In this document: piece by piece, positions 18,446-63,523 of the stretch
Position numbering within the stretch: position 1 is the stretch's first letter
Layout of the letters: each line of letters opens with the position of its first letter
The notes under the pieces: generated by a model
Told to the model about the DNA's origin: nothing
The model's input: the letters and a program-made list of their open reading frames with translations, nothing else
The model's database searches: none
Position numbers and translations under genes: made by a program
Assembly: GCA_010645155.1 (NCBI GenBank)
Contig: CM021323.1
Location: 4,244,781 to 4,308,780 of the forward strand
DNA: 64,000 nucleotides
From: Tigriopus japonicus
Lineage: Eukaryota; Arthropoda; Copepoda; Harpacticoida; Harpacticidae
Direction: 5' to 3'

Positions 18446-21400
18446 TCATCCGTCATTCTGGTTCTGTTTGCTCTTGCGATGGAACCGTTTCTCCTCTGGA
18501 TCAAAGCCACGCTCTTCACTGCCAAAGACAGCCCAATTTGGCGTCTCGGCCATGTAGTCTAATGCTGAGAAGGTTTGAGTTCCATTGGTTCGCTTGAACT
18601 CGCGGACCAATTGATGGAACTTGGGATAATTGATCCAGGTGTGCCATTTCCCATTGACCAGGAACTTCTTGTGACTGACCAGGACACAATTAGAGTGCTC
18701 GTGCTCACAAGAGATCTCGTAATCCGGCAGGCGTGAGGTCAGTTGTCGCACAAAATGGAGCACTTCCTCGTGCCATGGAACATTGTCCATGGTTAACGTG
18801 GAGGCTGAAAGAGAGGAAATTGAACCACGGATTACGATGAAATCTAGGCTTGTGTTAGGAAATGGAACTTGGAGCTTCCTTTGGCTCTTTTTTTTTGCTC
18901 TGAGTGAACAGTTAACGAGGCCTAAGTGGAATACCCTTATGAACAGAGAAGCAAATAATTGAGCAAGTTGGAGGCAATTACGAAAATGGCGCCGCAGGGA
19001 ACACGAATTGGGCTGTGTTTCTTGCATATATAAGCTAATGCTCTTGCGCCACAAATTCCATCAAATTAGGTACATCGGTATGGAGGAGTATCTCCCCTGA
19101 GACTTATTATTGCTCACATAAGCCTAAATGTATGTTGGTAAGATGTTGTCCCTTAAAAATGAAATGTCTCTTAACATCAGATTGAGTGGTCCCAAGTGTC
19201 TCCACATAACTTTTTTTAACATATTTTCCAAAAAGTAAGTGGAAATTACAGAGTTGTCGATTATGTTTATCGCGGTTTTGTTGCAAACTTTAATTGTTTT
19301 ATTCCTGCCCCATGTGGAGAGACTAAGACGGGAAAATATTATGCTTGTACTCTTTATCCACAACGGTTCTCGCATTTCCAATGTACCTTGAGATACATAA
19401 AGAAACATTATGCCACAAGTACAAATCATCTCATGGGAAGTTAGGTTTTCTCGGGTAACGTTTCAACATCGATCATAACTGCTCATAAGGCGGTGCTATG
19501 CTTTCGTTGGAATGTAATAATTAGTGCTAACCCAAAGGTGCCCACCGAAACCTGAAACCTTCTTTAGACAACACTTCCTTTCCCACGAACTCTTTCCGAG
19601 CGTTTGGATCTGTATCCATTAAGTGGAACAGTGTTTCAGTTGGTTCCCTAACCTTAATTGCATTGGCTTGTCAAGCGCATAATCCGACAGACTACATCAA
19701 GCATGCATCCTGGACAGGTCCAAATTGCCATGGAACAATTTCACGTTCCTCAAGTGGTCCAAATTTTTCTTTAGGAATTTCAAGTGCCGCTTAGGATTTC
19801 CAGCTCAAGGGATGGAAACGACTTCTCGAATGAACTCAACTATGTATGTACTGTGTGTGGAAATTCTTTCACATTGGAAGCGATCTCGTCTAATTAAATT
19901 TGTGATATCAAGTCGACCTTTACTCTCTTTCTCTCGTCTTTCAAATGGAAATCCGGTTCCATCCCGGGAGACTTTATATGTTCCGATTAAAGACTGATTG
20001 CTACTAGGTTGTGCTTTGGAAATCCTGCTCAAGTTTAATGAGCAAGAGCGCCCCTTCGCTTCATATTGGAACAAGCCTTATCTGTTCCCATTTTAGAACT
20101 GCCTTTCGAATGAAAGACGGGAAAAATGCTCTTTCGTGTCCTCAGGATACAAATGAGGTAACACAGAGGATGATAAAAACAGGTGCTCTCTTATTAATTA
20201 ACTGTTGTTTGCTGTCAAGAGGAATAAGATGTTCCAAAATGCAGTTGCAAGAAAGAGGAGCAATAACGGGACATCGAATAATGCTGGAAGTACAAACACT
20301 CTCGAGGATCTCGCCGCCAGCGTGAGGAAACGTTACACAAACAGGAACAAAGCGAGATAAAAAAGGCCTTTCCCACAATCAATCAAGACTCAACCAAATC
20401 AGACTAACATAATGATGAGCGTTGCCTCAAGGACTCAAAGTCCTTAACCCACATTGAAAGGACGAAAGGCACGAAGATGAGTACAAATCAGGGGTCAGCA
20501 ACTACTGAGCCGCATGTGGTAGTAGATCTGAAGCTAATGGGAATGTCCAAAATGGTGGGTCATAGAGCAATCTAATGTAATGTATTGTCTTCTTGGCTTA
20601 ACATTTCTGTGGTTTTTGTAAATGTTGAAGCTATTTGAGACTACTTTTCTTCTCCCTCTTTCAATTGGCAAAAATTTAAAATAAGACGACATATAGTGAA
20701 TACAAACACAGGTATCTTTAGGATTGTTATCTGTCGCGCCTTTTTGAGCATTGTAAATTTTGCGTGAGATTACAGAAGCTCATGTGAAAGAAGCGTCGTT
20801 AGAACACTAGCACCGGTGGCTTTATCATGAGGCTTTAAAAATCCAAACATACCGGGAAGTGCAAGAGAAAAAAATACAGCAAATAGGAGACTTTGACCAA
20901 AAAATATCTATGGAAGAAGGTGAATTCATCTTATTTTATGATCCAATGACTGGATCAATCTTTACTGTCATGATCTAGGTATACTGATTGCCAAATCGAC
21001 TTTCGTTATAACTTGAACTTCCTGATTGATGGTGGCGACAACAACGGCAAACATTTGAAGCTTCGAAAAAGCCAAACAATGTGACTGTGTTGACGCTTCT
21101 TTCCCATGAGCTTCTTTACGTGAGATCAACCATTTCCGAGTTACGGACATTGTTGCTCTGTTTCTTATTATTCGCCCAATATTTATGAAACTTCAAATGT
21201 CATGTAATAAAAGAATCGTTTCGATGTGGACAACCTTTTGAAAATATCCCATTAGTGTATTTTCCTCTTCAAGATCCCGAAAAAAACCTATGGCCTAAAA
21301 TTTTAGAAGGTTTTTTGCAATCGCGTCAATCGTTCAATTAAGGTAAAGTGGCTAAAAACTGTTCAAGCACTTTCAAAATAAAAACTCCCAGAAAACATTT

Positions 21401-24400
21401 TAAAAGTTTGGTTGAACATACAACAAAAAATATACCCCCATTTTTAGATCAGTCTTGTGAGGAAAGAGTTGTCTCGAAATAATCTCTGAAGTCATAGTTG
21501 CAGGCAATTCTTTGATCTCTTGGGTTCTAAATTTTCCCTGATCCACTTCAAATCAAAACTTTCAGACATTTGGAAGATCAAAAGATATCTTGGTCTTTGA
21601 TTTTGTCACGTTTGGTTCGTATCTATGTAATACAATGTCTGGCACCGAGTGATCTCAAAACAAGCTTTTGTCAGATTCTCCTCTGAAATGAGTTGAAGTC
21701 TGAAAACACGAGTTTCCTTCATATTGTTATTGAAAATCTGATATAGCCTCTCGAACTAAGGTGTGAATTTGAAGTTTTGCACGCCTTTCTATTTACTAAA
21801 TGTTCTGGAAGGCTCAGGAAAATAAATCCTCGACATACGAATCAACTACAACAAATGCGGGAGACAAACTTTATGAACTGAGGAGAAACTCGACAATTGA
21901 TGCCGTTGTCGCCACCTCAACGATCCTACAATAAAGTTTTTCCTCAAAGATTAGAATCCCCCAAGCTTGCATTTTTGGGGAGCTCTCCAGTTTGACAATG
22001 GAACTTGCAAAACACGTTGATGGATTATGCAAATCTTCACATTCAAATGAAGACGTCGACGACTCTCATTCCTTGGTGAAAGCCTCTCAATTTCCCAAGA
22101 GATCCTGACGTTCCGTTCCCTTTTATGAATGATCTGTTTACCTTTGGAGGTTCCGCAGTAAGTGACCCCTTTCACCTCGATAAAGTCGGGTTTGGCCATG
22201 TCCACCAATTTGGCGTAGTTGTCCATTTCCTCGGCATTCCAGCCTTTGACCAACGTCAATCGGTACACGGTTCTTTGGCCTTTGCGCGAGAGCTCCTTCA
22301 AACTGTCCATGAATCGCTCCCAAAAGTCCCGGAACAAAGGTCGGTCGATCTTCTTCAACGAGTCCTTGGTGGAGGCGTCGATGGACACATAGAGCTGAGT
22401 GACGGGACTAATGTCCCGAATGGCCTCCGGAAATTGAGCGTTCGTAACCAAGAAGCTCGAGATGGATTTCTCGTGGAGAAGTTCCACAAACCTAGAGTGG
22501 AACAAATTTGAGTGGTTAGAACAGGTTCGATGTACACACTTGTTCTGAGTTAGCCCTCAAGTTATTTTGGGCGTCAATATCAGATACTGGCTTTCTTCCG
22601 GACATTTTAAGGAATTCTATATTATTCAGGCTGCAAATGTGTGCATAAAATAGGATTGTTTTTGAGAGATTTGGGCTGTCATTCTGTGTTCTTCAATTGG
22701 TTTTAGTAGTCATTACTTTTGTGTGTCGAAGAAATTCGCCTTTTTTGGAGGACTCTTACATGTGCAACCCTGTAATTAGGTATGGTCTTTCTATTTTTCA
22801 GTGATTCAATATCAATCAAACTATTCCAGGTGATCTAACTAAATAACTAAGAATATGAATGGGTTCTCATCCATCCGTCAAAACTGAATCTGAGAAACGG
22901 CTACTTTTACGTTCAATTGAAGACCGGTAATGTAGTGGAACGAAACTATTGATATTGATCTAAAAGAGTAATCGATTTGGAAAAGGATCGAGCTTGATTT
23001 ACTTTAATGCAATTCTCGGTATTAGTTTTTCGATAAAGAAGTTGAACTGACAATAACATTCCTCATTTTTAGGGCATATTTAACCATGGTAACTAAACAC
23101 ACTACATGCAAGTTCCGGTTTTCCTAAAACGACCAAAAACATCCCATAACCCCGAAATTACGGGAAAGGATCTGATCATTTTGATGTCCATTTTCTTGAA
23201 TTATTGCACTCAGCTAATCTTGATCAAAAGAAGGCTTTAATACAAGATATTTCCAAGCCAAAAGAGTTCGAACTTCCATTCCATCAAAGGTTTACTTCTT
23301 GAGCCTTAACATCATGATTGGCTTATTTGATGTTTCATCTGGATCAAAATGATGAAACAAACTTCAAAAATCCTACTTTGGTCTCATGATTTAGATGTTC
23401 TCCACAAAAATATTACTTCGTCATAAGTCCTTTGCACTGATCGTCTTGACCAAAGCCACATTTATATTGATCATCCTAAAGTTATGGCAGACAATCTTGT
23501 TCTAATAATTTTTGAACCAAAGAAAAACGTTTCGAATCCACCTGCCTGAACCTATCCTAAACAAAAAGGTTGTTTTCCTTGCAAACATGACTATTTGGGT
23601 TACGAAATGAAACGGGTGATCGGTGCATCTCAAGAGATTTTTCTTACATAAGTTAAGACATAACTTGATGCGAGCAAAGTTTTTTTGTCCCTTCCGTTAG
23701 ACAAGCTTACGTTTGAGAGGCAATCTTGAACTTACAGGCCTCAACTTCCTTTCAGGGCTTTGAAGGGATTATTCCACTTACGAAAGCCGTTTTTCCCCAA
23801 CTTTTTCTCTCTTAACGAATACCGAGAAATTCTGCTTTAGCTACAAGAAGATTGGTGCATTTCAAATTCGATGTTACAAGATGTCAAATTGGCTTATTGT
23901 AGGTGTGAAAGGTAAACAACCTTTCGTTTAAAGGTTGTCCTTTAGAGAGAGAGAGAGAAAGAGGCCCCTAATTGATACTTGTCAAATTTTGTTCCAGCAA
24001 ATCCCTGTCCAGGCAATGGCAATACCTAACTCGTTCATTCGTCTTCATCATCTTTCTTGACACCAAAGGAGAAAGTTGGCTCATTTTCTCCTCTCTTCAG
24101 TGGAGACCAATGCCATTTAGTCCATTCAACAGGCGTGCGAATCTTTTGTCAAGGCTTTTAAAACAGGGGAAAACTAGCTGAACTTTCCGTGCCTTCAAAA
24201 TAGTTGCAGACGAGGTGAAGCATTGGATCTTATTAACAAACTTGTAATAATAAAATCTTTGAAAGCTAAGAATATTGATTAAGGGATTAACATTGAAAAT
24301 CCAAATAGTAATCAAATTCAATTACTATAAAATCAATCAATCCAATTCATAGACCACATATTTCGAATAGTCTGATTTCGGTGAGTTAGAGGATCTATAT

Positions 24401-27400
24401 AACAATAGCGCGGATCAAAAGAGAGTGTGTACTAAATAAAGCCAATCAAAATAGCGCCACTTCAAAATAGTGCCAAATCAAAATAGAGCCAAATCATAAG
24501 AGAGCGCGACATTTTAGAGCCGATCATAATAGAGTGCATTTTCCTTCATCTATGTATTTCTTGAGGCTAGGATGAATAGTGAAGCCTTTTAATATTCGAA
24601 AGGCTATTTTCGGGAAAATTGTTCCATAAGCGTTCTAGAACTTTTTCTTCATGAAGGGCATATTCCATACTAAGCATTGTGTCAACTAATGATGGACCGA
24701 AAGCGCTTATGATTTCGAAATTACGATCGAATTTTTGGTTTCGGTTATGCCTGCCGAAACCGAAAGCAGACATGCACTTAAAGGATGGAGATTGACAACA
24801 AAATCGAAAAAAAAAAATGATTTTGTTTTTCAAAAACCTCTAAAATTTAACCGTTTCCCGATTTTTCAAAATTTGCGACTACCAAACATCGAATTCATGA
24901 GTAATTTGATTTTGAAGGTGGATTTTGCATTTGTACAATTTTGCAGCAAGTTGCTTTCGGTTTCGGTTTCGGTTAGGCCCTCTTTCAGCCGAAATTTTCG
25001 TTTTCGGTTATGAGCCCTTTCTGTCTATCACTAGTGTCAACTGACTCAATCATTTCATCAATGTCTATGCTCATTCAAGACCAAGCAAGGGCTTGGATAG
25101 GAAAGTGCAAAAATTTTCAACATCTGTTTATCAATACTTTGTGATTTAAAACTGTAAATTGAGAACCGAAAATTGTAGTGTTCATGATAGTCTTGCAGCG
25201 TCCACATGTTAGATGCCGACTTCCTGTTGTTGGGATTTTCTGCCACAAAATGAGCCTTGGTAAAAAAGCGTTTCCTTGACCTTTTGGGTGATTGTGAACT
25301 CTGTCAACATTATTGACTGATTTGATTTATCATTATCATCTATAAATTTCTACCCAACAAAAAATTGACGAATTGAACGAACGCTATTTTCGCTCTAATT
25401 CAATACACTCTCTTTTGACCTGGCTCTAATTTGATTCGCTCTCTTATGAAGCGACTCTATTTTGAACCGACACTATTTCGATTCGCTCTATTTTGTATAC
25501 ACTCTCTTTTGATCCGCTCTAATTTCATAGGATCCCGAGTTAGATGTAAAGAGTTTAGTCACGTCAGAGTCGACCTTTTGGTTCTATAAATAAAGCTGTT
25601 GTAATTGATATTAACAGACAAGATAAAAGCACTTCAAAGGATACCCCAAAAATGTCAGCCGAACAAATGAGAATTGTTGAAAAAGATATTTTTGCAAAAC
25701 TCGAGTTAATCTTTAAGAACTATTTAACATTTATGCCAATCTTTAAGGTCTTGAGTATACCCATGTTTTATGGATTTTCAGGAAATATTTCATGATTGTC
25801 AAACTTTGGCATACCTGCAAAAAATCTACTTATATATCACATAAAATTCATGAGTTTATAAACGAAAGAAAGTACCAAGGTCGAAAACTCTAAAGATGAA
25901 TAAAGGTAGTCTAACAAACTGTGGAACAAACCGGATCTAACTTGTACCATTTGTGCCGAGATCAGAGGTATGTGTGCTTTGTATTCTTGAAGATGATTGT
26001 CAAGGCACGGAAGTATTTGGAGACAGATAGAATGTGTTCCAACAACATGAAGCGCCAGCCATGTCGTACAAAAAGGAAACCTGGGGAATTGGGGTTCGAA
26101 CACGAATTTCTCCCTAATAACTGAGCAAGAAAAAATGTGCATAGATTTACTCGAATTATATCCATTGAATCATCCAAATCAAAAATTAGGGGACTTAAGA
26201 GCGATCCATGAGCAAAATCAGGGATTAGGATCAAGTTTGCATTGGCTAAGCATGGTGTCAAATTAGTTTGAATGATGAAGTTCCTTTTTCACTTTCAATG
26301 GGCTTCTTCAGTGTTTGAATTTGTTACCCCAATTTATTTGTAAGGAATGTCTAGGAACAGTGATCGACAAATTTTAAGTTATAATCCTGATCAAACCTTT
26401 GTTTAAGGAATGTTCCAATCAACGAAATTACATTCGTTGGCAGACCAAAAATATTTTTCTCTTAACTGTAATCAATGTTTCTGTTATATTTTTCCAACGA
26501 TGTTAAAAAGACCTGCATATTAGGTATACTTCAAAATATCATTCAATTAAATATGGGGCCTTAAATCTGAAAATTATCCAGCTTTTTGGGTCTCAATTTT
26601 AACTTTCATACGAAATGATGACGTCACGACAGTGTCCTGCATCAACTTTTGAATATTTTTGTGTTTGGTACTTCAAATATGGGGTGCATTTTACTAGTAT
26701 TAGTTAGCCAATCTTTTAGCTTTTTGTCCTGTGGAAGTCGCTTTAATATATAGCACTGTTGCCAAGTTTCCGAAAGAGTTAATGAGCAAAGTTAGTTGCT
26801 GGAAACGGTCTAGAAGAGGATTGAAAGTCTGCCAGGTTTTTGAACCCTCTCCTCTAACTAATCTGTACTCCATGTAACTTCAAACGGAATTCGCAAACAC
26901 TCTTGACCTTTTCAAGCTTTTGAACATTGTACACTTACAATTTAAACGTTCAAAGAGCATCTATGAGTTTAATCAAGAACAACTATTTTGAGCATGTATG
27001 GATGAGTTTTATGAAGAATGTTAATTGATGGTTACAAAAATTGCCACTAGATGGAGCCAAAACAGGGGCAAAGCCCTTGATTTCAGATGTATCCTCAACT
27101 TTGATTTGTTGCCAAAATTGTACCTTCCATCTTAAAATGGATTTTTCTTCATATTTCGAGTCTTTTGGAGCTGAGCTCCGACATTAATGTGTTCAAAAAG
27201 TAAAAAGTTACACTGAGTCATCACAAGTTGAGGCTAAATATTTACCAGAAGCACCCACAAGTGTTTTTTTCTATCTCAAGATGGCGCTGATTGTCATTTT
27301 TCTTTTTGACTGAAGCTCAACTTTGCTTTCTTCAGAGGGCTTGCTCTGACGGCAGAGTTGTTCATTTTGAGAACAAGAGAGGCCACCCTAGTAGGATGTG

Positions 27401-29397
27401 TTAAGGGCATGCTAAATCATGTCAGCACATCTAGGTGAAGCGAATGTTAGTTTTCTTTAAAATCCTAACAGATTTTTTTTGCATTAAAAAATGTGCTCAC
27501 CCATATAGCACGGTGTTTTTTTCCTTTGCCCTTAAAGTGCTGGAATAGTTTATTTTTTAACTTGTTTTACATTGAAAATACCGGGAGAGCGGCTAATTAC
27601 CTAGTCAAACCTTTATGATATATCTAATTTAACTATTTATGTTTCATTATTCCTGACTAGACTTACATTTGTATTACCTTCTCACATACTTTTTGAGTTG
27701 AATCTGCCATTTATGGCATACAGATATCTACTACCACTACAACTAAAAATCCTCGACTACCTTAACAAACTTAGCGCAAAAAATAAAAAAAACGTAATTT
27801 CTGTAAATATTCACGAGCAAGCACTCTCGAAAAATATTCATGAATAAAATACAAATTATGTAAAGGAAAAGAAAACCCATTAGTTTGACCTGGCTTCTTG
27901 AGATGGATTGATATGATTCTATAAGGCTTTTTCAATCTTTCTCCTGAACGGTTTACAGAAAATAATCATGGGTCAATCGCATATTATGATTTACCTGTTA
28001 ATTTCCGGATACATAATGGGTTCACCCACTAACGAAAGAGCGCAATGTTGGACATTCATGCCTTCCTCAAGTTTTTCGGGCAACACTCCGGGAACGCCTT
28101 TCATCTGCTTGATCATCTTGTAATGATTCTCCAGGGCTCCATCCAGAATCATATCCGGTGGGTCCATTTGCCAACGCCATTCCGTTCCTACGGGATTGGA
28201 ATGATGACGCCAACAAAAGACGCACTTATTGGCACAAGCCAAACTGGGCGTGGTCTCCATACACTGATGTGAAGCGATGCCATAGAAAGTGTGCTTGTAA
28301 CACCCTCCTCGTCCTCGCAACATCGCCTTCGTCCATCGACAAATCTTGACCCCCGAATGGCTTCCGATTAACTTGTATCCTTGTTTGGTCAAGGACTTCC
28401 GCAAACTGGGCGTGATCATCTCTCTAGGCCCACTTGCGGCATCTTGTTTCTTCTTATCCTTGGCCTTTTTCATCACATTACCAATGTCCTCCAAATCCAC
28501 CAAACCATCGCCTCCATCTTCATCAGCCTCATTCTCATCGGCATCGCTGAATTCCGAATCAGTTCCCGAATCGGATCCATCCGTACTCTCAGTATCCAAA
28601 TCACTCGTTTTCTCTTCCGATTGAGTTCCACACGATTCGACACTATTAAACCTTTGTAATCGATTCAAGAACTGACTTTTCCAGTGATCGAAATCGCTTT
28701 CTAGATTTCCATGCTTGGATCCGGCCACGTTTTCATCGCCAATTCCCAGAGAATGGAATCGAATGGCACTCAATTGGTAGAAATACTTGTCGCAGTTCTT
28801 AGCAATGGTGTTAAAATGATCTTGGTATAAAGAATTGCCCAAACCAAACACGGCAAATTTCAAGCCCTGCAAGATGGAATGTTGGGTTCGAAAATCCTTG
28901 GCCGCTTCCTCCAACCATTGATAGAACCATTTGGCACTTTCCGGTGGAGTTCCTTCGGTGTAAGTGGATATGATCAGAACCAAGACCGCATTCTCAGAGG
29001 CTTCATGGGTTAATTTCTCTTCAAAATCATAAGTGGAAACATCCAACACCTCAGATTTGATCTGAAGTTGTTCCAAACTTTGAGCGAGTTGATTGGCCAT
29101 GGACTTGGCATTGCCCGTAGTGGTTCCATATAGAATCTTCACCCTTTGAATGACGCTTTGATTGCTATCTCCCACTTGACAGCATTGGGAGCCTTTGGAG
29201 CAAGAATTTTGCTCTGGTTCTTCGGCATTGCTCTGGATTTGCCTTTGATCAGCGACATCGTGAATAACACGTGTTTCCTGATGTGCCTTGATTTTGGGTT
29301 TGGGCGAACGAGATAACCAAGCTACAATGACGATGGTTAAGAGCGTGCACAGAACAACCGGAACCGTGAGTGTTCCGATGATTGGCAGACCTAACAT
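18446..29397 (-). CDS. TYW1: tRNA 4-demethylwyosine synthase TYW1 (3 exons, 703 aa)
   Basis: Exons in transcript order are 29397-27995, 22491-22142 and 18804-18446. All borders are GT-AG and the phases fit (AG|G, then G|CC), giving 2,112 nt. TYW1 condenses pyruvate-derived carbons onto N1-methylguanosine-37 of tRNA-Phe to form the tricyclic base 4-demethylwyosine, the second step of wybutosine synthesis. Domains in order: an N-terminal membrane segment at about 7-27, as in animal TYW1; a flavodoxin-like FMN domain at about 85-248 with GTTTGNAK and STYTEGTPPESAKWF; an acidic Ser/Asp/Glu linker at 265-303; the radical-SAM core from about 325, with the iron-sulfur cysteines C388, C392 and C395 in CANKCVFC; then LSLVGEPIMYPEINR, the strand-rich second exon, and the wyosine-base domain in exon 3 (PWHEEV, CEHEHSNC, FGSEERGFDP). 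Length is close to the ~730 residues of vertebrate TYW1. The start has A at -3 and no upstream alternative. Intact and presumably functional. Confidence 0.97.
18805..22141 (-). other. TYW1 intron 2
   Basis: A 3.3-kb phase-1 intron, GTAAAC to TTTCAG. It contains a hAT-type terminus at 20489 and otherwise only short chance frames. Confidence 0.85.
20489..20525. mobile_element. Solitary hAT-like transposon terminus
   Basis: The sequence beginning CAGGGGTCAGCAACTACTGA, followed by GCCGCATGTGG, has the form of a hAT terminus (CAGGGGTCGGCAAC-type). It resembles the ends of the complete element at 32539-32787. I could not find a matching opposite end or target duplication, so it is a fragment or a chance resemblance. 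Confidence 0.35.
24391..25536. mobile_element. Foldback/hAT-like non-autonomous transposon with 8-bp target duplication
   Basis: A 1,146-bp element flanked by identical GAGTTAGA octamers (24383-24390 and 25537-25544). The ends are inverted copies: GGATCTATATAACAATAGCG at the left and, read inward from the right, GGGATCCTATGAAATTAGAG. Both are followed by CGGATCAAAAGAGAGTGT. Each arm (about 24391-24540 and 25380-25536) is an array of degenerate 17-18-bp units of the type TCAAAATAGAGC. The middle carries CGGTTTCGGTTTCGGTT-like runs near 24.95 kb. There is no transposase frame. The octamer duplication favours the hAT superfamily, while arms built of short tandem units recall foldback elements. 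Confidence 0.8.
27048..27073. repeat. Dispersed repeat segment (copy A)
   Basis: A 26-bp block, TAGATGGAGCCAAAACAGGG plus GCAAAG, matches 50140-50165 with one mismatch. Weaker similarity continues for a few hundred bases on its right. Probably part of an old interspersed family. Confidence 0.5.
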
Positions 29398-29941
29398 TGT
29401 TCTCTAAGGATGTCGATGATGAATGAAATTTTGCTAAGGGATTTGTTTCTTTTTCGACTGAATATGAACACTAGCAGCTGTAGCAGCTGTGAACGAAAGC
29501 AAGAAAGCGGCATCTACTACTCAAGTAAACAACTGCAACATCAGTAGAAATTGAGGTTGAGAGAGTAATATTTGGATCGGCCGATGTCATTGACATTGAA
29601 ATTGTTTTTTTTTTCAAGATTTTTTTGATAATGTAAAGGACAATCAATAGCTTATCCGAAATCTGGAGAGTATAATTCATGTCCTGTGAAGACTCCTGAA
29701 TAATATGAACAAGTAAAAGAGATTCCTGAAGTACAGTACAATTCAACGTTCCAAGAATGAACATTCCATCCTCTCTTTGGAACTTCTACACGCTTTTGAA
29801 GAAAACAAAATGTCAATTACCTGAACATTATATGGTACTCAAAATTTATTCATCTGATAGGTCAATGGCTAATTTATCCTTAAGAGGTAAAAGGCCGACA
29901 AAAGCAGTGTAGTAATCCTTATTTTGCGATTGGATTCCATA

Positions 29942-30274
29942 GGGCAATTGAAGTGTGGCTTTGTTGTGCCTTTTCATGGAGCGAGAACTTCGACAAGTAT
30001 GACGACCAACTCGCACTGTGCATGCACTTGCAAAGAGACAAAACTTGGCATAATTCAAGAAATTGTGCAAAATATGTTGCATTGACTTGTTCTAGCAATG
30101 TAATGATAGTTCAGCTACATCAAATAGGAAATTGTGTTACAAGTTTGGCACATTTGCTTGAGAAATGATGAATTTTGTCTCTTTTCAAGTGCATGCACTG
30201 TGCGAGCTAGCCGTGGCAGATGTTGACGCTCTCGCTCCATGAAAAGGCACAGCAAAGCCACACTTCAATTGCCC
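29942..30274. mobile_element. Young palindromic MITE with TA flanks
   Basis: The ends read GGGCAATTGAAGTGTGGC inward on both sides and are flanked by TA (29940-29941 and 30275-30276), as in Tc1/mariner insertions. The outer ~45 bp of the arms differ at only one or two positions. Inner arm pieces (CGCACTGTGCATGCACTTG and AGAGACAAAA) also mirror each other. The centre of ~115 bp is unpaired. A transcript through it would fold into a long hairpin. No coding potential. Confidence 0.75.
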
Positions 30275-31470
30275 TATTTTTGGATACAGGTTTCCTTGAC
30301 TTTCAGTTTCTGTTTCGATCAGAATCCAATGCTTAAAAAACTTTATACTGAAGTAAATTTCGATAGTAGGTAGTAGTATTAAAATTTAATCTTGCGTTTT
30401 GGCGACAAAAGCAACTTTCCCTCTTGATCCATCGTGAATTGAGTGGAATGTAGTAATAGTTGATCTGCTAATAAGTTTTTATTCGTTTCATGGTTTCTGT
30501 AATGATATAGTTGATGTGGAGGTCTTAAGTAAATTGATACGAATACAATTATGACAAATTGGAATAAGATTGCTGAGGTTGAAATATGTTTGGAATAATG
30601 CATAGGTAGACTCGCATTACTTAAACAATCGTCGAATGAGTAACATTCAAGGATGACCTTTTATAGACAACAATACGTATACATCTTGCTACTCAGTGAA
30701 AGGAACAAGGTATTTGGATGCAGTAAAAAGAAATAGAATATGTCAGGGCATGTTATAAAAAGGGATTATTAAAGCGAGTTGCTCTAACACGTGGAGCAGA
30801 AAACATGATGGAATGTGAAAACAGGGGTCGTAAAACCACTCAAAACCTATTTTAAGTCGTTCTTTTTTCCTTTCACTCTCCAAACAGCTCATTCATAAAG
30901 GACATTTGAACCATTAGTTTGACTAATTTTTCCTCAAAATTCATCCAAGCGATTACAATCAAACTCATTTCCATTCAATGTCGACGTTTAGGGGTTCCAT
31001 TAGTCATCAAAAACAATCACACTTTAGGGCAAAGTTTTACAATTCACAAAAACCTAGATGAAGATACAATCTTATGTTGAGAATCCATGAGGGATAAGCA
31101 GTCATGCAAGATCCCAATCACTTGGTTTGTTTCGTCTTCCATTGTCGAGATTTGGGGTGTCAGCACATTTCTTGTTGCTTCCATTAGTTTTTGAGTTTGA
31201 AGTTGCCGAAGCAAGTTGCTAAAATGTCACAACCAAAAATTTTATGGCAAGACTGGGACGATTTCGAGTGATTTGCCAGAAAGAAAGCCAAAGTTTTGCT
31301 TATGAAAGCCTTGAATGACAAAGTCAATGAAAACCTTATTTGAGGATGTTGAGGAGAAGGAAGCAAAGAAAGAATGATAGAGAGAAGATTTTTGTTTAAA
31401 TAGCACCCTCTTGATTCTTGAAGTGGGTTCCCGGCCAAATTTAACGGTAGGGCACTAACCCTGGCCCACT

Positions 31471-31605: not shown

Positions 31606-34600
31606 TCACATCTTGAATAGTATCCAAAGAGCCGCGAGCAGAATTGACCAGGTGGCATTAATTGGAGCGGAGGAGTTTCTGAGCAAAGCACGGATCCGAT
31701 CCCACACGCCATCGTTGGTCTGAGGATCGATATTCAGTAAGAAACAGAACATTTGATAAACATCCACCAACTCGATGGGAGCATAAGTGTGGCCGTCCGA
31801 ATGGAAACCTGCAACCAAAGTTGGAAGTTGTAGGAATAATAGGTGATGTTCTGGTGCATCGAAGCATCAAAGTTTGCTTTGCTTTAATTTTCATTGTTTC
31901 TTCTGAATTTTCCTCTCAATTGAATTGAACTCAATTGAATTTTAACTCCGATCAAAACTCTTTCTACAAGAATGAAAAAGAGCATACAGTCAAAACTGGA
32001 CAAAGAAGACTGGACTTAGAAAATACCAGGTGTAACAAATAACAATAACTCTCAAAAAAAGGATATTTTGTGACCGACCAAAATACAGCTCTAAAACATA
32101 GCGTCCCTTGATTTAAGAAGAACTCTCGATAGAAAAATACTATTGCTGCTGACAGCCATTTTTTTGTGTCAGGCTTTGAAGGTGCTAAAAACGGCGCTTC
32201 AAAAGCCGTCAAAACAATGAGATATCCAGAATTTGGGGTCAACTCTTTGAAATTCGTGGGCTTTTACCATCTCGAAACTCTAAAGTATTACAAAAACGAG
32301 TATTTCACGTAACTTCATAAGTATTCATCCTGAACTTAATTATCGGTAAAGCCAAAGTTCATCAAAATAATAGAGAGTATTGTTATGAGTTCTTTCTTAT
32401 AACTATGCTTCTAGATATGCTTCTACAATACTTCAAAACTACCTCAAACCGACCTTCTATCTCGAATATTTTGGTCGGCGGCAAAGCTTTTCTTCTTTCG
32501 AGAGATTTTACCATATTTAATGGCTTTATCATCTATTGCAGGGGTAGGCAACCGGTGGGCCGCGGCCCACATGTGGGCCCTAGGGTGGTCTTTGGTGGGC
32601 CCAGGCGCTATGGGGACAGTCCACAATAGTGGGCCCGAGAGCCATTCATTGTCCAACCTCGTGGGCCCAGAGCTCTTTGATCATTGAATTGTGGGCCCAT
32701 GAACCTTCTAACATTTGTTTGGCGGGCCCCAGACTACAGAAAGTTAAATTTGGTGGGCCTTGACCCAATAACGGTTGCCGACCCCTGATCTATTGAATAT
32801 TCCTTTATGTGTTAAAAGCTCTATACACCCTGACATGAAAGTTTTGTCGTAATTTGAACCAAAATATTTGCATTATATAAGAATAGATTTGAACGACTTG
32901 ACATCCAATCTGTTCCCAACTAGTCTCTTCATCCTTGGAAATGATATTTGGGATGCTATCGACCAAAGTGGAAAGTGTGGACGGCTCAACGTTTTTCCGC
33001 ACTTTTTCAAGTGTCTTCCCTTTGCCTAAAATTTTGATGAACGGTTGACATTCTTTGAGCTCTTGAATTAGGACAGACAGTAATATTTCCCGTTATTTTG
33101 AGTTAGAGGTGTTCCAAAACTAGTCTCCTTTCTCCAAAACCGGGTAAAATTTGATTCCCGCCATTCACTATTTTTCCACAGCGGTTTAAAGGCAGATGGA
33201 AACGTGCAAAAAAAGCCGGACATCAAGTTGACAATTGGTGTTCCAGGAATAATTTGTCACCTATTTGTCCTTAGATTACACCATAACTAATCCAAAAATA
33301 TTCTAGGCACTTGTTGGTGCACATGGGTGGTTTGATTGCGCCAAAATGTCCAATCATTGCCGTTATTTTTAGCCTCAAAGTATAACTACGAAAAACTTTC
33401 GTGTCAGGGTGTACGATTTCATAAAAGATTTCGTCTCTTGCGCCCATAGTCGAAATGGAGAAAACCACAAGAGGCAATGTAATTTCCTACCGGGTCCTCT
33501 CGCCATGAAGACGCCTCGCATATCAGTTTCCTCGGGATCGTAACCGGACACGCCTTGTTGCGTTTGCTCTGTGATGCGGGCGGGATCGTATCCACCTCCA
33601 TACAACTGAAGGCTGGAGGCCGGCCTTTGAAGGTTGCCACCGGCCCGTAACAGAATCACACCCGGTCTAGCCAGGATCAAAATGGGCGGGGTGTTGACAT
33701 TGTCCCGCCAATGGAGATGATCCGGGATCTCATCGCGCGTAAAGATGTCCACACCTTTACCATCGAGCTCTGCGCGAAGAGCTTCGATGATCTCGGGGAT
33801 GAATCGCTCTTGCTTTGGATAGATCTGCATGTAAGCTCCGGATCCGACGGTCATCTTGACGATGCGTTGAACTGATTTCAAGATGTAGCTCATTTGAATC
33901 TGGCGCACTTCTATGGTATTGAATGGGAACGATGGCGGATGATGGATTGGGATCGGATTGGAACCGTAGGTCATACCATGATCGGACATGATCACTACAT
34001 TCACCTGTGTGAGAACAATCCTCTGCTGATTAAGTGGGACACAGATCGTGATGGAACAAAAAGTATACTTTTGTTGGGGACAATGGTCAGGGTTTCTCAT
34101 TTAAAATACAGCATTAGATTATGATCACACTTTTTTGGATGTCATCCAAGTTTTCCTTCTCAAAGACAAATGTGTCTCTAGACGTCACATTGATGTGCAT
34201 TTATTTTCCCCCCGAAGAAACTTTTGTGCATCCTTCTTCAACGTTGCACACAATTAATTATTTCCCCACCCAAAACAGTTATATGAACGTGCATGAAGCG
34301 GAATCAAATTCTTCTCCAACACTTCAACTTCTAATTCTCTCAGTTACGTCAAGAAACCCAAGAGCGATATGGAATAGGAAGGAGGATAGAAAAGATTCAC
34401 TTACGATCTGATCCATTCTCACTTCTCTGAGTCGGACGAGGAAATTCTGAATACTCTTGTCAAGGGCCCTTAGTCGCATTTCGACATTTTTCGACAAAGG
34501 TCCGAAGGCTTCTGCCGCTTTTCCCAAGCTATCTTCGTAAATCTGGAAGAGGAGCATAAAATGAGGATAGCTAGAAGCCAGGAGAAAAAAGAGCCCCAAT

Positions 34601-37600
34601 GCCAACCAACGCATCTGAGGGTCCTTTTCCCGACAAGACGAGGGGGATTTTTCATCTGGTCTTAACAAAGGACCAAGGATTGACTTTGTTGGCATCTTTG
34701 GCCCATTGGGTATTGGACATGTATGGTTTGCAAGTACATTTCTTTGGAAGCGACAGGGCCATAAATTCCAGAGGAGGAAGTACATATCAAACTGTGAGAA
34801 GTTGAAGGGAATGCTGTCCAATTGAAACTGGCCAGGATTCTCGGCTTATTTGCCGTTGACGGACTGAATTTATCAAGTAGGCTTGAGTTAAGTATTAGAG
34901 AGTCTGTTCTTGCAGCATGATGATGCTTCGTCACTCTCTCAGATGAATATTAAGACCCTCGAGAGTGTCATTGGACCAGGTCCAGTCGTGTCCTTTTACT
35001 AAACATATAAAGGCCAGGCAAGCATGGACTTAGTGAGGGTCAGTGAGAAAAGGCCGATGCAAACAAAATGGTCCCAGTGAGAGACAGGTCAATGAGAAAA
35101 GAAACAACCGAAGGCTCGTTGTTTGTATCATTTATATTGCCATGGTTCGAATCATCTTTAGGGACACCGAGAGGTTCGCGACAATTCATTCATTCGCGAT
35201 AGGAGTTCAATAGAACCATTGACTAGACTAATTACTTTATTTTCTCGCTGCAGTCATCCTCTCTTGGAAGTGCTGTAAAAAGTTTGGAAGGGAACCGCCG
35301 CAAAACTAGGGTGGTCTTTCATGAGACCTTTATCGCCACAAGAATGCTCCTTTTGAGGCTTGCCACTGAATGGGCACCAAACGGAGGAAGCCAATTTGAA
35401 AGGCCATCTAAGAAGGCCATCCCTGTCCTTTGTGTGGCCTTCTCCCACTCTGTTAGCTTCCTCGTTCGTGTCTCTCTTTGGCCTTCTTTCTCTCACGCAC
35501 TCATTGCAGAGGAGGCATGTCAAAACTTTGGAGGTCTTCACGGAAAAGGGGGCTTAACAGTATTGGGGGGTCCAAGATGTGTTAGAAGGAAGGGGATTTG
35601 TGCAATTTCACATGATGACAAAAGTTCAAAGATTTTCCAATTCGCCCGTCAAGAGCGCCTTGCCTTTTCACAGTTCCGCAACCAGTTTTGCGCGTAGAAA
35701 ACACTTTGGACCAATAAGGTCATATGGCGTTTCTACATTATGTTCCACTTTCTTACCAATGCCGCTGATCGTCCCGTTTGAAACTCCATGAGAGCCATAT
35801 CAAGATTGATGTGAAGGGTCTTCGAGTTGTCCTTGTGGTAAACGTTTTCACACACCCTGGGCGTGATTGGATTTACATCATCCCATTCCACGTCACATCT
35901 GCAATAAGAGAGACGCCGTGACCTCGAGAATACCTCTACTAACAAGGTCGTCTATGTCTCAAGAATGTCCCCTTGGCCATGTTACTCAATCCCGGAAAAT
36001 CACAATATTTACCTGCTCCAAAGGAATGTGACAAAGTCTTTGCCTTGTTTTTGAGCCGTGGCCCAAATGGGCTCGGGATCGTGCCACCATCTGACATCGC
36101 CTGTCATTCGTTCATCGATGTGATTGAAGAACTTGGACTGCTTGTGACCTCGAGCCGTGGTATCGTAGAATTGGTTGGCCAGAATCCCATGGTTCTCCGG
36201 ATACAGACCCGTGCTGATGGTTTGCCAAGATGGGAACGATTCAGCAGGGAACACTGATTTGAGATACTCGCTTTGAACGCCGCCCCGAATGAACTCCTCG
36301 AATCCTGGGAATCCTTGTCGACTCCGTCGAGTGAACCGACTGATGTAATCCCATCTAAATCTGTGAAGGAACAAAAACACGTCCACATCTATTATTCCGA
36401 CTGGTAATTCTGGCGTTTCATCCGAGCGAGTAAATTTGACCAAAAGCGCGAGAAAAAACGGGATATTAAGGGAGACTCGAAATGGATGAATTGTGGTGGA
36501 GGAGGAGGAGACCTAGAGAAGTGGGTTGTCATGAAGTTCTGCTGAGTCGGGAGCTCTTTTCAAGCTTTTTTTTACCACTTTCGACCAAAATCCATTATCT
36601 TGACGCATGGAAAGAGTTCCGCTGAAGAAAATAGAGAGGGTAAAAAGAGTAATGAACGAAGAACCAACGTGGAACAAGCTCACTAAAACGGATAAATGTG
36701 AGTACTCCCAGTACATTCAAATGGATAAGAACCAGTTTCACGTGTATCATAGTCGTGGAATGGAACTACAAATAGCTCTCGGAGCTCGAAAGAGAACACC
36801 AATTCCGATAGGCGAGCTAAGTTACTTCCACAGCATATTTACGGAGGAGGTTCCCATTTTCGGTCTAATTTATGTCGTCTGTGGGTGAATCAATTATAAG
36901 AGGCAAGAGGGCTATTGAGCTATTTTGGGCGCAATTTGGCTCCACCGGCAGATTCATGGCCTTGCAATCAGATCAAGTGAAGGCCTGGTTTAAGCGGTCC
37001 TTCAAACTCCACTGAGATTCTTCTTCAGCATTAGTTTCTGATATCTTTTTTCCTCCCACTTCAATGAGTATTCAAACCATTTATACCATTACTTTGCATG
37101 AAAAAAACTCTTAAAATGAGTCAATACAAGACGTTCCATTTTTCTTGTCGTGGCCTTCAAGAAGATTCGTGTGGTTGCGTGTCAATTGAGATTGTATGAT
37201 AGTGCCTTTGCTCGTGGAGTTACTGAACAATGACCAACTTACAACATATTCGATGTTCATGTCACTCAAGATACCCGACCCTTGCCACTTTCAGGATAAG
37301 GATCTTCAGGAAAATGACGAGGAACTGCCTCAGTGAATATTCTCGATTGTCTAACGTTGAGGGGTTTAGTACCGTGTGTTTTATGATGCACTTATTTGAG
37401 GGTAAGAAGAAGTCAGATTCCAAAATTTGCCACTCTCCACGTGGAAAACGAACAGCCAAGTCATTGAAATTCTGAAGACACTTTTGACAGAAATCCTTCT
37501 TTGAACCAAAAAAAGGAAAAAAGGGATCTTCTCGTTTCTGTTGTAAGCTTCCAGTTGGCTTGAACGAGGGTTTGGGTGGAACGAAGACTCTCTGAAATCT

Positions 37601-39162
37601 CAATCATGTGTCGATTCAGGATCTAAATCTCCCTCTTTATGAAGGAGGAGAATCGGATAGGCAAACCCATCCGGCAACTTTGGATGGTATTCTTGAAATG
37701 CCCGGCCATCATGACAATCAGATAAAACTGGAAACCGTCCGTGAGCAACCAAGGTCATCATGATCCTACGTTTCTTGTTTGTCATCGACAATCATTATGG
37801 AATTCCCAGGCGGTCCGCATAATGGAAGACGAAATGATCTTGGGATGATGTGCTTGACTAGTGGCGAGAGCTCGAGAAAAAGATGGACATCAATGCCTTG
37901 GGCGTGTGGTACATTTACACCCCTTTTACAAGTCAGTCCGAGATCCTTTCTTGTAACGTTCCCATGGTTTCCCTTGACCTAGGAGAAGTGTTCATGTGCA
38001 ATAGGAGACTTGGACTGTGAACTGAATTCAATGTGTTTACCCTCTTTTCGGCTATTTTGTGTTCCTTTTCATTCTTATTGGAACAAGACCGTTTTCTTTT
38101 GGCCGAGGTTTATTTCAAGAATGGACCCTTGGGCTTAGAAAAAAGAAGAAGACGAAGGGACGAATAAGATGAGAAGACGACGAAGAACGAGCTCAGGAAA
38201 AGAGAAAATTGAGTTACGCTCAACTTTTTGAGTTTGTGGGATTTGGAGGCCAGCCCACTATTGCCACGGATGGAGGAACACCTCACCAGAAAATGGAAAA
38301 TCTTGGATTAAGATCATGGTTTGCACTTTTACTTTCAATTTGGCTCCTTCTCAAAGGTCTTTGGAGAAGATGGAAGAAGAATACCCTCTTGTAGTACTAC
38401 ATATCCAGCCTAGTACGAATTGAAGGAACGTGGTTTTCCAAGTGCGCATGCGCTCAAGTTTTGTTTCCAATTCAGAGGATCTTTTTTCATTGTCTAAGGC
38501 TGGGAACTCGGGAGACAAGGCCACGCGCACACAAAGTGGAACATGTCAGAACATCTTGTTCTTGCACCTCATCAACACTGGCTCCAAAGTTTGAGCCCCA
38601 GAACTTGGAGCCCTCGACAAGTATGGGACATTCCAAGGCTTTGGGTGACACCTCACTCACACACGAGCACTCATATGCTCTTTTTTTCGCCAAATCTCTC
38701 TCAATCAAGACAAAGTGCCTGTGGTAGACTACTGTTACTTGCCAAGTGAGGGAGGGTGATAGTTTCAAGCATATTCAAGGAGACAAATGGGCTAAAGGCA
38801 AAAAACTTTGCTCTCTTTGACGTCCAGCGTGGAACCAACATCTGTTAGCAATGCAGTACATTTAATGCTGGACTTGACAGATGTATCAAAGTGGAACAAG
38901 AGTGTTCTTTCATAGCGTACATCATTAGTAAGTGTATGGTACTCTTTTGCTCATCGTGGCCGGGTTTTATTTCGTTCTCCAAATGGCTGACCTACTCCAA
39001 CTCATTCACTTACCCATCTATAACAACCACAAGTAGTTTATCATCGGGTCTACTTCGATCCGAGTATGGATCCTGTCCGTCAGTAACCGATTGTGGATTT
39101 GTCGAGATTTGAGTGATTAAGGGAAACAAGAGGGCCAGAACCTGAGAAACGAAGATCTTCAT
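31606..39162 (-). CDS. ENPP6-like ectonucleotide pyrophosphatase/phosphodiesterase lacking one metal site (6 exons, 497 aa)
   Basis: Exons in order are 39162-39014, 36360-36013, 35898-35757, 34542-34405, 34004-33491 and 31808-31606. All have GT-AG borders and phases add to 1,494 nt. Exon 1 codes a signal peptide (MKIFVSQVLALLFPLITQIS) and the strand KLLVVVID that joins GFRWDYI. ENPP6 relatives are GPI-anchored cell-surface enzymes that cleave choline phosphodiesters. Kept here: D49, the nucleophile-position S91 in ESFPSW (Ser as in ENPP6, Thr in most ENPPs), N in HGILANQ, and D267-H268 in SDHGM, that is the ligands of one zinc. The other zinc site is gone: where ENPP6 has D and H (IDVEGHHYGP) this protein has G220 and E224 (LGKAAEAFGP), and the third ligand His before GYDN is S412 (GVSGYDP). 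The C-terminus (RNSSAPIN, then a 14-residue hydrophobic tail) suits GPI attachment. Fold and family are secure. Catalysis is doubtful. Confidence 0.93.
31809..33490 (-). other. ENPP intron 5
   Basis: A 1.7-kb phase-1 intron, GTAGGA to TTGCAG, holding a complete hAT-like MITE at 32539-32787. Just left of it, 32404-32455 resembles the arm of the palindromic element at 41171-41331. Confidence 0.85.
32539..32787. mobile_element. hAT MITE with perfect 8-bp target duplication
   Basis: A 249-bp element with ends CAGGGGTAGGCAACCGGTGG and, inward from the right, CAGGGGTCGGCAACCGTTAT. It is flanked by identical ATCTATTG octamers (32531-32538 and 32788-32795). Terminal sequence and duplication length are diagnostic of the hAT superfamily. 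Inside are about seven copies of GTGGGCC or GCGGGCC spaced some 25-40 bp apart, making the element a GC-rich island in AT-rich intron. Such subterminal repeats are typical transposase-binding sites. It encodes no transposase. Confidence 0.9.
34543..35756 (-). other. ENPP intron 3
   Basis: A 1.2-kb phase-0 intron, GTAAGA to CTTCCAG. I looked in it for an alternative fourth exon restoring the DxxxGHxxGP motif and saw none. The 137-codon + strand frame at 35284-35697 here has no recognisable domain. Confidence 0.75.
36361..39013 (-). other. ENPP intron 1
   Basis: A 2.65-kb phase-2 intron, GTAAGT to CTTCACAG, splitting the Gly codon of the conserved DGFR motif. Several short + and - strand frames occur, for example 93 codons at 36607-36888, none recognisable. 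The two shorter ENPP introns are 35899-36012 and 34005-34404. Confidence 0.8.
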
Positions 39163-56694: not shown

Positions 56695-57658
56695 ATGGGT
56701 TTTGAAATGGCATTGCTCGAGTCAGAGATTACAATTAAAGAGGAGTTTGATTTCGTGGAAGTCCCTGAAGACCACTTGTCGGAATCAAAAACAGAAATAG
56801 AAAGTGAACATGAAATTCAACCTTCCAGTTGTTCAAATGAGAATGTCAACTCAGCTTCAGATCACACCTATGCAACAAAAAAGCAAGTATTGGAACGAAC
56901 CAGAAGAGAAAAGCGTAAAGAATATGGAAGACGTTATTGCTGTGTGGTCAATTGCCACAACAGGGAAGGAAGGTAAGTCCCTGGTGTAATATTTGGTGTG
57001 GCAATGATTCACTTTTGCACATGTTTTGATCCATTTCAGACCATCAAAAGACACAGGAGAAAAGTTGATATTCTATCAGTTTTCAAAAACATACCAAGAT
57101 CAAACCAAGCTATGGGTCAAAGCTCTTAATGAACTTATTGCCAGTAACGAAGTGTGGCAACCCAAACCCAATTCAAGAATTTGTTCAGCACATTTCTTGG
57201 GCAATAAGAAGAGTGTTGATCCAGAGAGCCCATCTTATATGCCAACCATTTTTCCAAATGATCATCGGAAGCGGCCAACAGAGGCGGATTTGGCCAGATA
57301 TAAAAGACGAGTAGAGAGAAGGATTCAAAGAGAAAGAATAATTAGTGGGAAAAAAACAAAAAAAATCGAGACGACAAAGACTGTACCACAGTGGGAAGAC
57401 AATATTCAGTTTGTGAGTGATATTGAAGAAAATCTTTTAAAAGCTCAGTCTGAGGTGATTGCTCAACCTAAGCCAGAGGAACTCCCAAAATTTGTTCGTG
57501 CTGAAAGTCCATTCAAAATTATGTTGGAGTATGGGACTCAGACTCCGAAATATTGGTTAAAGGAACTTGTAAGAGGAAACATGATTCCGGCCATGACAAA
57601 TCAAGCGACGCAAACGGACCAAATGGAGATCGTCTCGACAGCAACGATGACCCAATAA
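56695..57658 (+). CDS. THAP-domain zinc-finger protein, copy 1 (2 exons, 298 aa)
   Basis: Exons are 56695-56972 and 57040-57658, joined over a 67-bp phase-2 GT-AG intron (AG|A) that cuts through the THAP domain. THAP proteins are nuclear, sequence-specific DNA-binding factors related to P-element transposase. An acidic N-terminus with EITIKEEFDFVEVPED (a SUMO-type IKEE at 14-17) precedes a basic patch at about 69-80. The C2CH finger uses C83 and C87 (CVVNC), then C141 and H144 (ICSAHF), with the invariant W118 and the PTIF box at 161-164. A basic, possibly helical stretch (about 175-200) follows. The tail carries two TQT motifs (GTQTP at 258-262, ATQTD at 282-286). Met5 (56707) has a better start context than Met1, but both Met residues are present in the sister copy. 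The THAP domain is internal rather than at the N-terminus as is usual. Target genes cannot be inferred. Confidence 0.92.
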
Positions 57659-62562: not shown

Positions 62563-63523
62563 ATGCATTGTGAAATGGCATCATTGTCAGAGCCTACAAT
62601 TACAATCAAAGAGGAATTTGAATTTGTGGAAGTCCCTGAAGACACTTTGGTGGAACCAAACCAAGAAATTCAAAGTGAAAATCTGCTTATCATTTGTTCA
62701 TTTGAGGATGTCGAATCACCTTCGGATCACACCCATGCCAACAAACAAAAAGTACCGGAACGATTTGAAAGTACAAGGCGTGGAAAACGTTACTGTTGTG
62801 TTCCCAATTGCCATAACAGGGAAGGAAGGTGGGTATAAATCCATGGTTAATATTTGGTAATAAAAGTGTTGATTTCGTATTAAACGGGATTTGATTCATT
62901 TCAGCCCATCAAAAAACACAGGAGCAAAAGTGACACACTATCGTTTTTCGGAAAAATTCCCAGAACAAACCAAGCTTTGGGTCAAGGCTATTAATAAGCA
63001 TATACCCACTAGAAAAATGTGGCGACCAAAAATCAGTTCAAGAATTTGTTCAGAACATTTCTTGGGCAATAAGAAGAGCGTTGATCCAGATAGCCCATCT
63101 TATATCCCAACCATTTTTCCAAATGATTATCGCAATCGGCCAACAGGGGCGGATTTGGCTAGGTATAAAAGACGAATAGAGAGACGAAATCAGAGAGACA
63201 GAATGTTGGGAGATCTACAATCAAAGCACATTATGGAGACAGAGACAGTATTACAATCCGAAAAAACCGTTCAGTCTGCGGGTGATTTTCAACAAAATCT
63301 GTTAAAGGCCCAGTCTGAGGTGATTGCTCAACCAAAGCAAGATGATCCCCAAGAACCTGTTCGTAGTGGAAGCCCATTCAAAATTATGTTGGAGTATGGG
63401 ACTCAGACTCCAAAACATTGGTTGAAGGAACTTATAAGGGGAAGCCCGATTCCGGCCATGACAAATCAAGCAACGCAAACGGACCATAAGGAGCTCGTCT
63501 CAATTTCAACGATGACCCAATAA
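62563..63523 (+). CDS. THAP-domain zinc-finger protein, copy 2 (2 exons, 294 aa)
   Basis: Exons are 62563-62828 and 62905-63523, with a 76-bp intron in the same position and phase (AG|C) as copy 1. The second exon is exactly 619 bp in both copies. The protein aligns with copy 1 end to end, apart from a few residues in the variable N-terminal region: ITIKEEFEFVEVPED with a SUMO-type IKEE, zinc ligands C79, C83 (CVPNC), C137 and H140 (ICSEHF), the PTIF box, a basic stretch, and GTQTP and ATQTD in the tail. Met5 (62575) again has the better start context. The two finger regions differ at many surface positions (for example IFYQFSKTYQDQ against THYRFSEKFPEQ), so DNA preference may have changed, whereas zinc ligands and tail are kept. 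The reading frame is intact, which points to selection on both copies. An AATAAA at 63553-63558 is the likely poly(A) signal. Confidence 0.92.

Follow-up and report, generated by a model that had tools for sequence, protein, structure and literature searches.

The question raised by this locus is whether a member of the ENPP family can still be an enzyme once every ligand of one of its two metal sites has been replaced. The gene lies on the minus strand of a 64,000-nucleotide stretch of the genome of the copepod Tigriopus japonicus (assembly GCA_010645155.1, contig CM021323.1, positions 4,244,781 to 4,308,780; hereafter the window), where six exons between 39162 and 31606, a span of 7,557 nucleotides, were spliced and translated into a protein of 497 amino acids. 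An earlier note on this DNA had named D49, S91, D267 and H268 as the ligands kept and G220, E224 and S412 as the replacements, and all seven stand exactly there in the spliced translation, together with N112. The answer we favor, with a probability of about 0.62, is that the gene encodes a pseudoenzyme derived from ENPP6, a surface protein with a glycosylphosphatidylinositol (GPI)-type tail that would bind its ligand without cutting it.

Membership in the family is indicated by a match to the ENPP profile Pfam PF01663 at 197 bits and by an intact predicted ENPP fold, and the best solved chain by sequence is mouse ENPP6 (5ege). In that enzyme D193, H197 and H354 are described as binding one zinc ion, here called metal 1, and Asp32, His241 and Ser71 as binding the other, metal 2 (PMC4757880). 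The alignment to the solved ENPP6 that the earlier note proposed has been run, and it pairs mouse D193, H197 and H354 with G220, E224 and S412, leaving none of the Asp/His/His set that catalytic two-metal ENPPs use at metal 1. The Asp, Ser/Thr, Asp, His set of metal 2 is complete (D49, S91, D267, H268); D240 we take to be the fourth ligand of the second zinc in ENPP6. Because ENPP-type two-metal hydrolysis needs metal 1, the window protein is not expected to work in the manner of ENPP6.

The reading of the gene itself appears sound, as the earlier note had held for its frame and splice sites. All five introns have GT/AG borders, the spliced reading frame is unbroken, and the database protein P0001 is identical to the window protein at 495 of 497 residues, with mismatches at residues 37 and 483. 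The longest contig behind P0001 has 2,989 bases, which is shorter than the span of the gene, so these contigs, judged by length, must carry the spliced form; as a spliced and independent source they support the exon junctions. The substitutions do lie in two different exons, G220 and E224 in exon 4 and S412 in exon 5. An alternative exon with an intact motif was also looked for, and the unsplit D..GH..GP codon pattern had no exact match on either strand of the 64-kb window, a search blind to motifs interrupted by an intron.

The loss of metal 1 is shared by a whole clade of proteins. A first protein search covered the best 120 of 2,407 matches and a second, profile-based search the best 120 of 2,042, the profile having been built from 17 of 20 entries with the fragments P0016, P0019 and P0020 omitted. 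Among the matches listed in the first search, P0001 and 19 relatives at 42-54% identity are followed by a fall to about 32%, and among those listed in the second there was one more clade fragment, P0121, at 51% identity. The earlier note had suggested looking for orthologues with the same losses, and none of these 21 close entries keeps any metal-1 ligand where it can be read (Asp 0/20, His 0/19, late His 0/20). At metal 2, where readable, S91 is kept in 18/18, D267 in 21/21, H268 in 21/21 and D49 in 13/18; N112 is substituted in 3 of 19. The D/H/H set is kept in 138 of the 153 other fetched matches among those listed; 8 of the 15 exceptions have Asn for Asp, and in P0036 the late-His position cannot be read. 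Outside the clade only P0034 and P0066, among the matches listed, lack all three metal-1 ligands as the clade does. These two unnamed ENPP-like database proteins fall outside the clade in the tree on long branches whose placement is unsure, so the loss in them was probably separate, which suggests that it happened repeatedly.

The tree, computed without the motif columns, has 54 rows, 19 of them from the clade (P0001-P0019), the fragments P0020 and P0121 being left out. The 19 rows are monophyletic with support of 100/100, on a stem of 0.93 changes per column. Eurytemora falls in one of two subclades (96/89) and the window protein in the other (100/99); since neither subclade has metal 1, we infer that it was lost before they diverged. 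The Eurytemora protein, P0007, carries the one usable organism name among the clade entries, and the clade, by partial inference, probably consists of copepod proteins. Across it residue 220 is E, G, A, L or T, and of 425 tested columns away from the active site, 94 show the same residue in 16 or all 17 members. A pseudoenzyme shows a conserved loss of catalytic residues in a protein that is otherwise maintained, and the shared loss, conserved frame and fixed columns of this clade present that combination. Protein conservation within the clade likewise supports the word "selected" in the proposal of the earlier note, which had offered a selected pseudoenzyme or a one-metal variant in place of decay or sequencing error; the P0001 contigs, the clade-wide loss and the intact predicted fold all agree with it.

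What such a protein might bind is suggested by the choline pocket. Mouse ENPP6 (5ege/5egh) is a choline-specific glycerophosphodiesterase, whose pocket is described as Y72, Y75, Y157, Y188, E190 and D32 with the C142-C154 loop (PMC4757880). The window protein resembles it in its Ser nucleophile, S91, and in both insertion-loop cysteines, C167 and C182. The pocket residues Y157, Y188 and E190 give a mixed picture, with Y215 retained, Y186 offset by one and D217 variable in the clade. The clade as a whole retains the aromatic cage (F92, W95, Y215), W164 and the two loop cysteines, which would form a disulphide; it differs from ENPP6 in E90, Q96, F159, Y186 and D189. Six named decapod ENPP6-like proteins (P0023, P0024, P0025, P0026, P0027 and P0029), at 30-33% identity to P0001, are among the closest named intact relatives in the matches listed, and they already carry W at 95 and either F or Y at 92, but all six keep the D/H/H set that the window protein has lost.

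We therefore picture a secreted, GPI-type cell-surface protein that has kept the fold of an ENPP and a large part of the choline pocket of ENPP6, in which two-metal phosphodiester hydrolysis would no longer occur and a ligand would be bound and left uncleaved. Binding without cleavage is preferred, with choline-type ligands first, because the pocket aromatics and cysteines are kept and metal 1 is gone. A choline-type headgroup, as in glycerophosphocholine, phosphocholine or lysophosphatidylcholine, is the leading guess for the ligand, and a protein docking over the former pocket is the alternative candidate. The protein might then serve as a receptor, carrier or decoy at the cell surface, and a single metal may remain at the second site in those members that retain D49.

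Several observations weigh against this reading. The fold comparison places ENPP5, ENPP6 and ENPP4 within 1 Z unit of each other and does not single out ENPP6. The hallmark tyrosines Y72 and Y75, described as conserved among ENPP6 proteins (PMC4757880), are replaced by F92 and W95, which are aromatic without being tyrosine, and this is why we call the protein ENPP6-like and not ENPP6. Between the cysteine and the loop tyrosine, Y186, there is one residue more than in ENPP6 with its Y157, and the counterpart of E190 is D217, which varies across the clade. A point in favor of the reading, the position of ten fixed clade-specific residues mostly close to the former active site along the sequence, is tempered by a clustering test that was made post hoc and used distance along the sequence, not distance in three dimensions. 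The invariance of S91, D267 and H268 would also be unexpected were metal 2 useless, and P0018, one of the clade members without D49, is also missing W95 and some of the motif region and may itself be damaged.

That invariance, with D49 retained in most entries, is the best argument for the other option of the earlier note, a one-metal enzyme in which metal 2 would still activate the serine in the manner of LtaS and EptA, giving a slow hydrolase or transferase; we regard this as unlikely, though conceivable for the window protein itself, and as the most serious of the rivals. The superfamily members LtaS, EptA and YejM are described with a single-site metal center whose ligand set resembles the one remaining in the window protein, although they are bacterial membrane proteins of distant sequence. 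LtaS residues E255, T300, D475 and H476 are presumably the counterparts of D49, S91, D267 and H268. In LtaS a manganese ion is reported near the nucleophile Thr with these four among the residues around it, and YejM, whose status as an enzyme was debated, was first termed a non-enzyme and later reported active (PMC7576196). Missing residues by themselves are thus poor proof of inactivity. Our preference for the pseudoenzyme comes nevertheless from the further loss of D49, a ligand of the metal site that remains, on what we read, from the tree and not by computation, as two branches of the clade. The loss is sure in 4 of 18 entries, perhaps 5: P0002, P0005 and P0006 belong to one five-row group in which two rows are unreadable at D49, and P0018 belongs to the other subclade. 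The replacement of N112 in some entries and the assortment of residues at 220, unlike a new catalytic group, also argue against a one-metal enzyme. PorX binds about 2 zinc ions per monomer but 0.63 once the Asp/His pair of its Zn1 site is mutated (PMC11320123), and by analogy metal 2 may not hold alone.

A pseudoenzyme might instead have a regulatory role, in partnership or in competition with an active ENPP or some other ectoenzyme, as dead phosphatases regulate live ones among the myotubularins (PMC11314389). This seems improbable, in that the searches of the Tigriopus genome described below found no complete ENPP with which it could pair, although a gene of small exons could escape them. 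Least probable by far is gene decay or a mistake in the assembly: the long stem of the clade fits relaxed constraint at some time, but intact frame and splice sites, the agreement of P0001, the same losses in 21 entries and the many fixed columns all speak against it. The clade refutes this explanation unless its entries are all artefacts.

Two further ENPP loci were found in the genome (194.85 Mb in 158 contigs), and both are more thoroughly disarmed than the window gene. The paralogue on contig C9 (L002; C9:2485845-2483795, minus strand; PF01663 at 154.5 bits) is ENPP6-like, with 577 amino acids, five exons, an intact frame and a GPI-type tail; it has G, D, R, E and Y at D32, S71, D193, H197 and H241 and retains D240, and the region around its late His resists confident alignment (one alignment puts Q there). 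The paralogue on contig C2 (L003; C2:9286967-9288822, plus strand; 122.3 bits) is ENPP-like, with 527 amino acids, five exons, an intact frame and, by inspection, a membrane-spanning stretch; it retains D32 and has K, G, Q, T, P and S at the nucleophile, D193, H197, D240, H241 and H354. Its one protein-database match, in a search that missed distant relatives found by BLAST, was P0175 of Tigriopus californicus, which is 82% identical and has the same replacements. A canonical ENPP5 query returned the window gene and the C9 and C2 loci only, and a decapod-type ENPP6 (P0022) returned the same three plus, at E 0.9, a distant superfamily gene that we presume to be PIGN-like. This gene and another that we presume to be PIGO-like were both found in the genome, and their detection indicates that distant family members are within reach of the search. 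No catalytically complete ENPP appeared in three genome searches, which take exons singly, so that one divided into small exons could escape.

Along the window gene, exon 1 (39014..39162) carries the start codon, a signal-peptide-like N-terminus (helix 2-21 in the model) and the metal-2 ligand D49, and exon 2 (36013..36360) carries E90, S91 at the nucleophile position, the aromatic-cage residues F92 and W95, N112 and W164. Exon 3 (35757..35898) holds the insertion-loop cysteines C167 and C182 with E183, Y186, D189 and A211, and exon 4 (34405..34542) holds Y215 followed by YEDSLGKAAEAFGP where the D..GH..GP motif is expected, with D193 replaced by G220 and H197 by E224. Exon 5 (33491..34004) encodes the metal-2 ligands D267 and H268 and the stretch GVSGYDP, where the late His is S412, and exon 6 (31606..31808), all six being on the minus strand, is assigned from splicing and the model the end of the fold, the hydrophobic GPI-type C-terminal tail, judged by eye (the model has a helix at 484-496), and the stop codon. 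Within the last intron, 32545-32790 is by eye dense in repeated GTGGGCCC-like words. Downstream of the gene, an inverted repeat at 29939-30277, with two 139-nucleotide arms, 81% complementary, and a 61-nucleotide spacer, is perhaps a small mobile element. Neighboring minus-strand frames at 18446-29403 have flavodoxin, radical SAM and wyosine-formation domains, and we take them to be jointly one TYW1-like tRNA modification gene. On the plus strand, two similar 216-amino-acid THAP-domain frames (57008-57658 and 62873-63523) probably arose by duplication or from a transposon.

Much work exists on kinases and phosphatases that have lost activity. Among the papers listed in a literature search confined to open-licence work, none reported an ENPP pseudoenzyme family. 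The clade spans at least Tigriopus and Eurytemora, and what a dead ENPP binds can be tested directly with it, given a model of high confidence and a solved structure close enough to serve as template. The automatic name "glycerophosphocholine choline phosphodiesterase ENPP6-like" given to P0175 probably misstates the chemistry, and this has a bearing on zooplankton work such as metabolic reconstruction and the study of gene expression. We put the odds at about even that the whole Tigriopus ENPP family is disarmed, comprising three intact surface or membrane pseudoenzymes with no catalytically complete ENPP left. If this is true, these animals would keep ENPP folds for ligand binding, and extracellular choline and nucleotide phosphodiesters would be cleaved by other families or by none.
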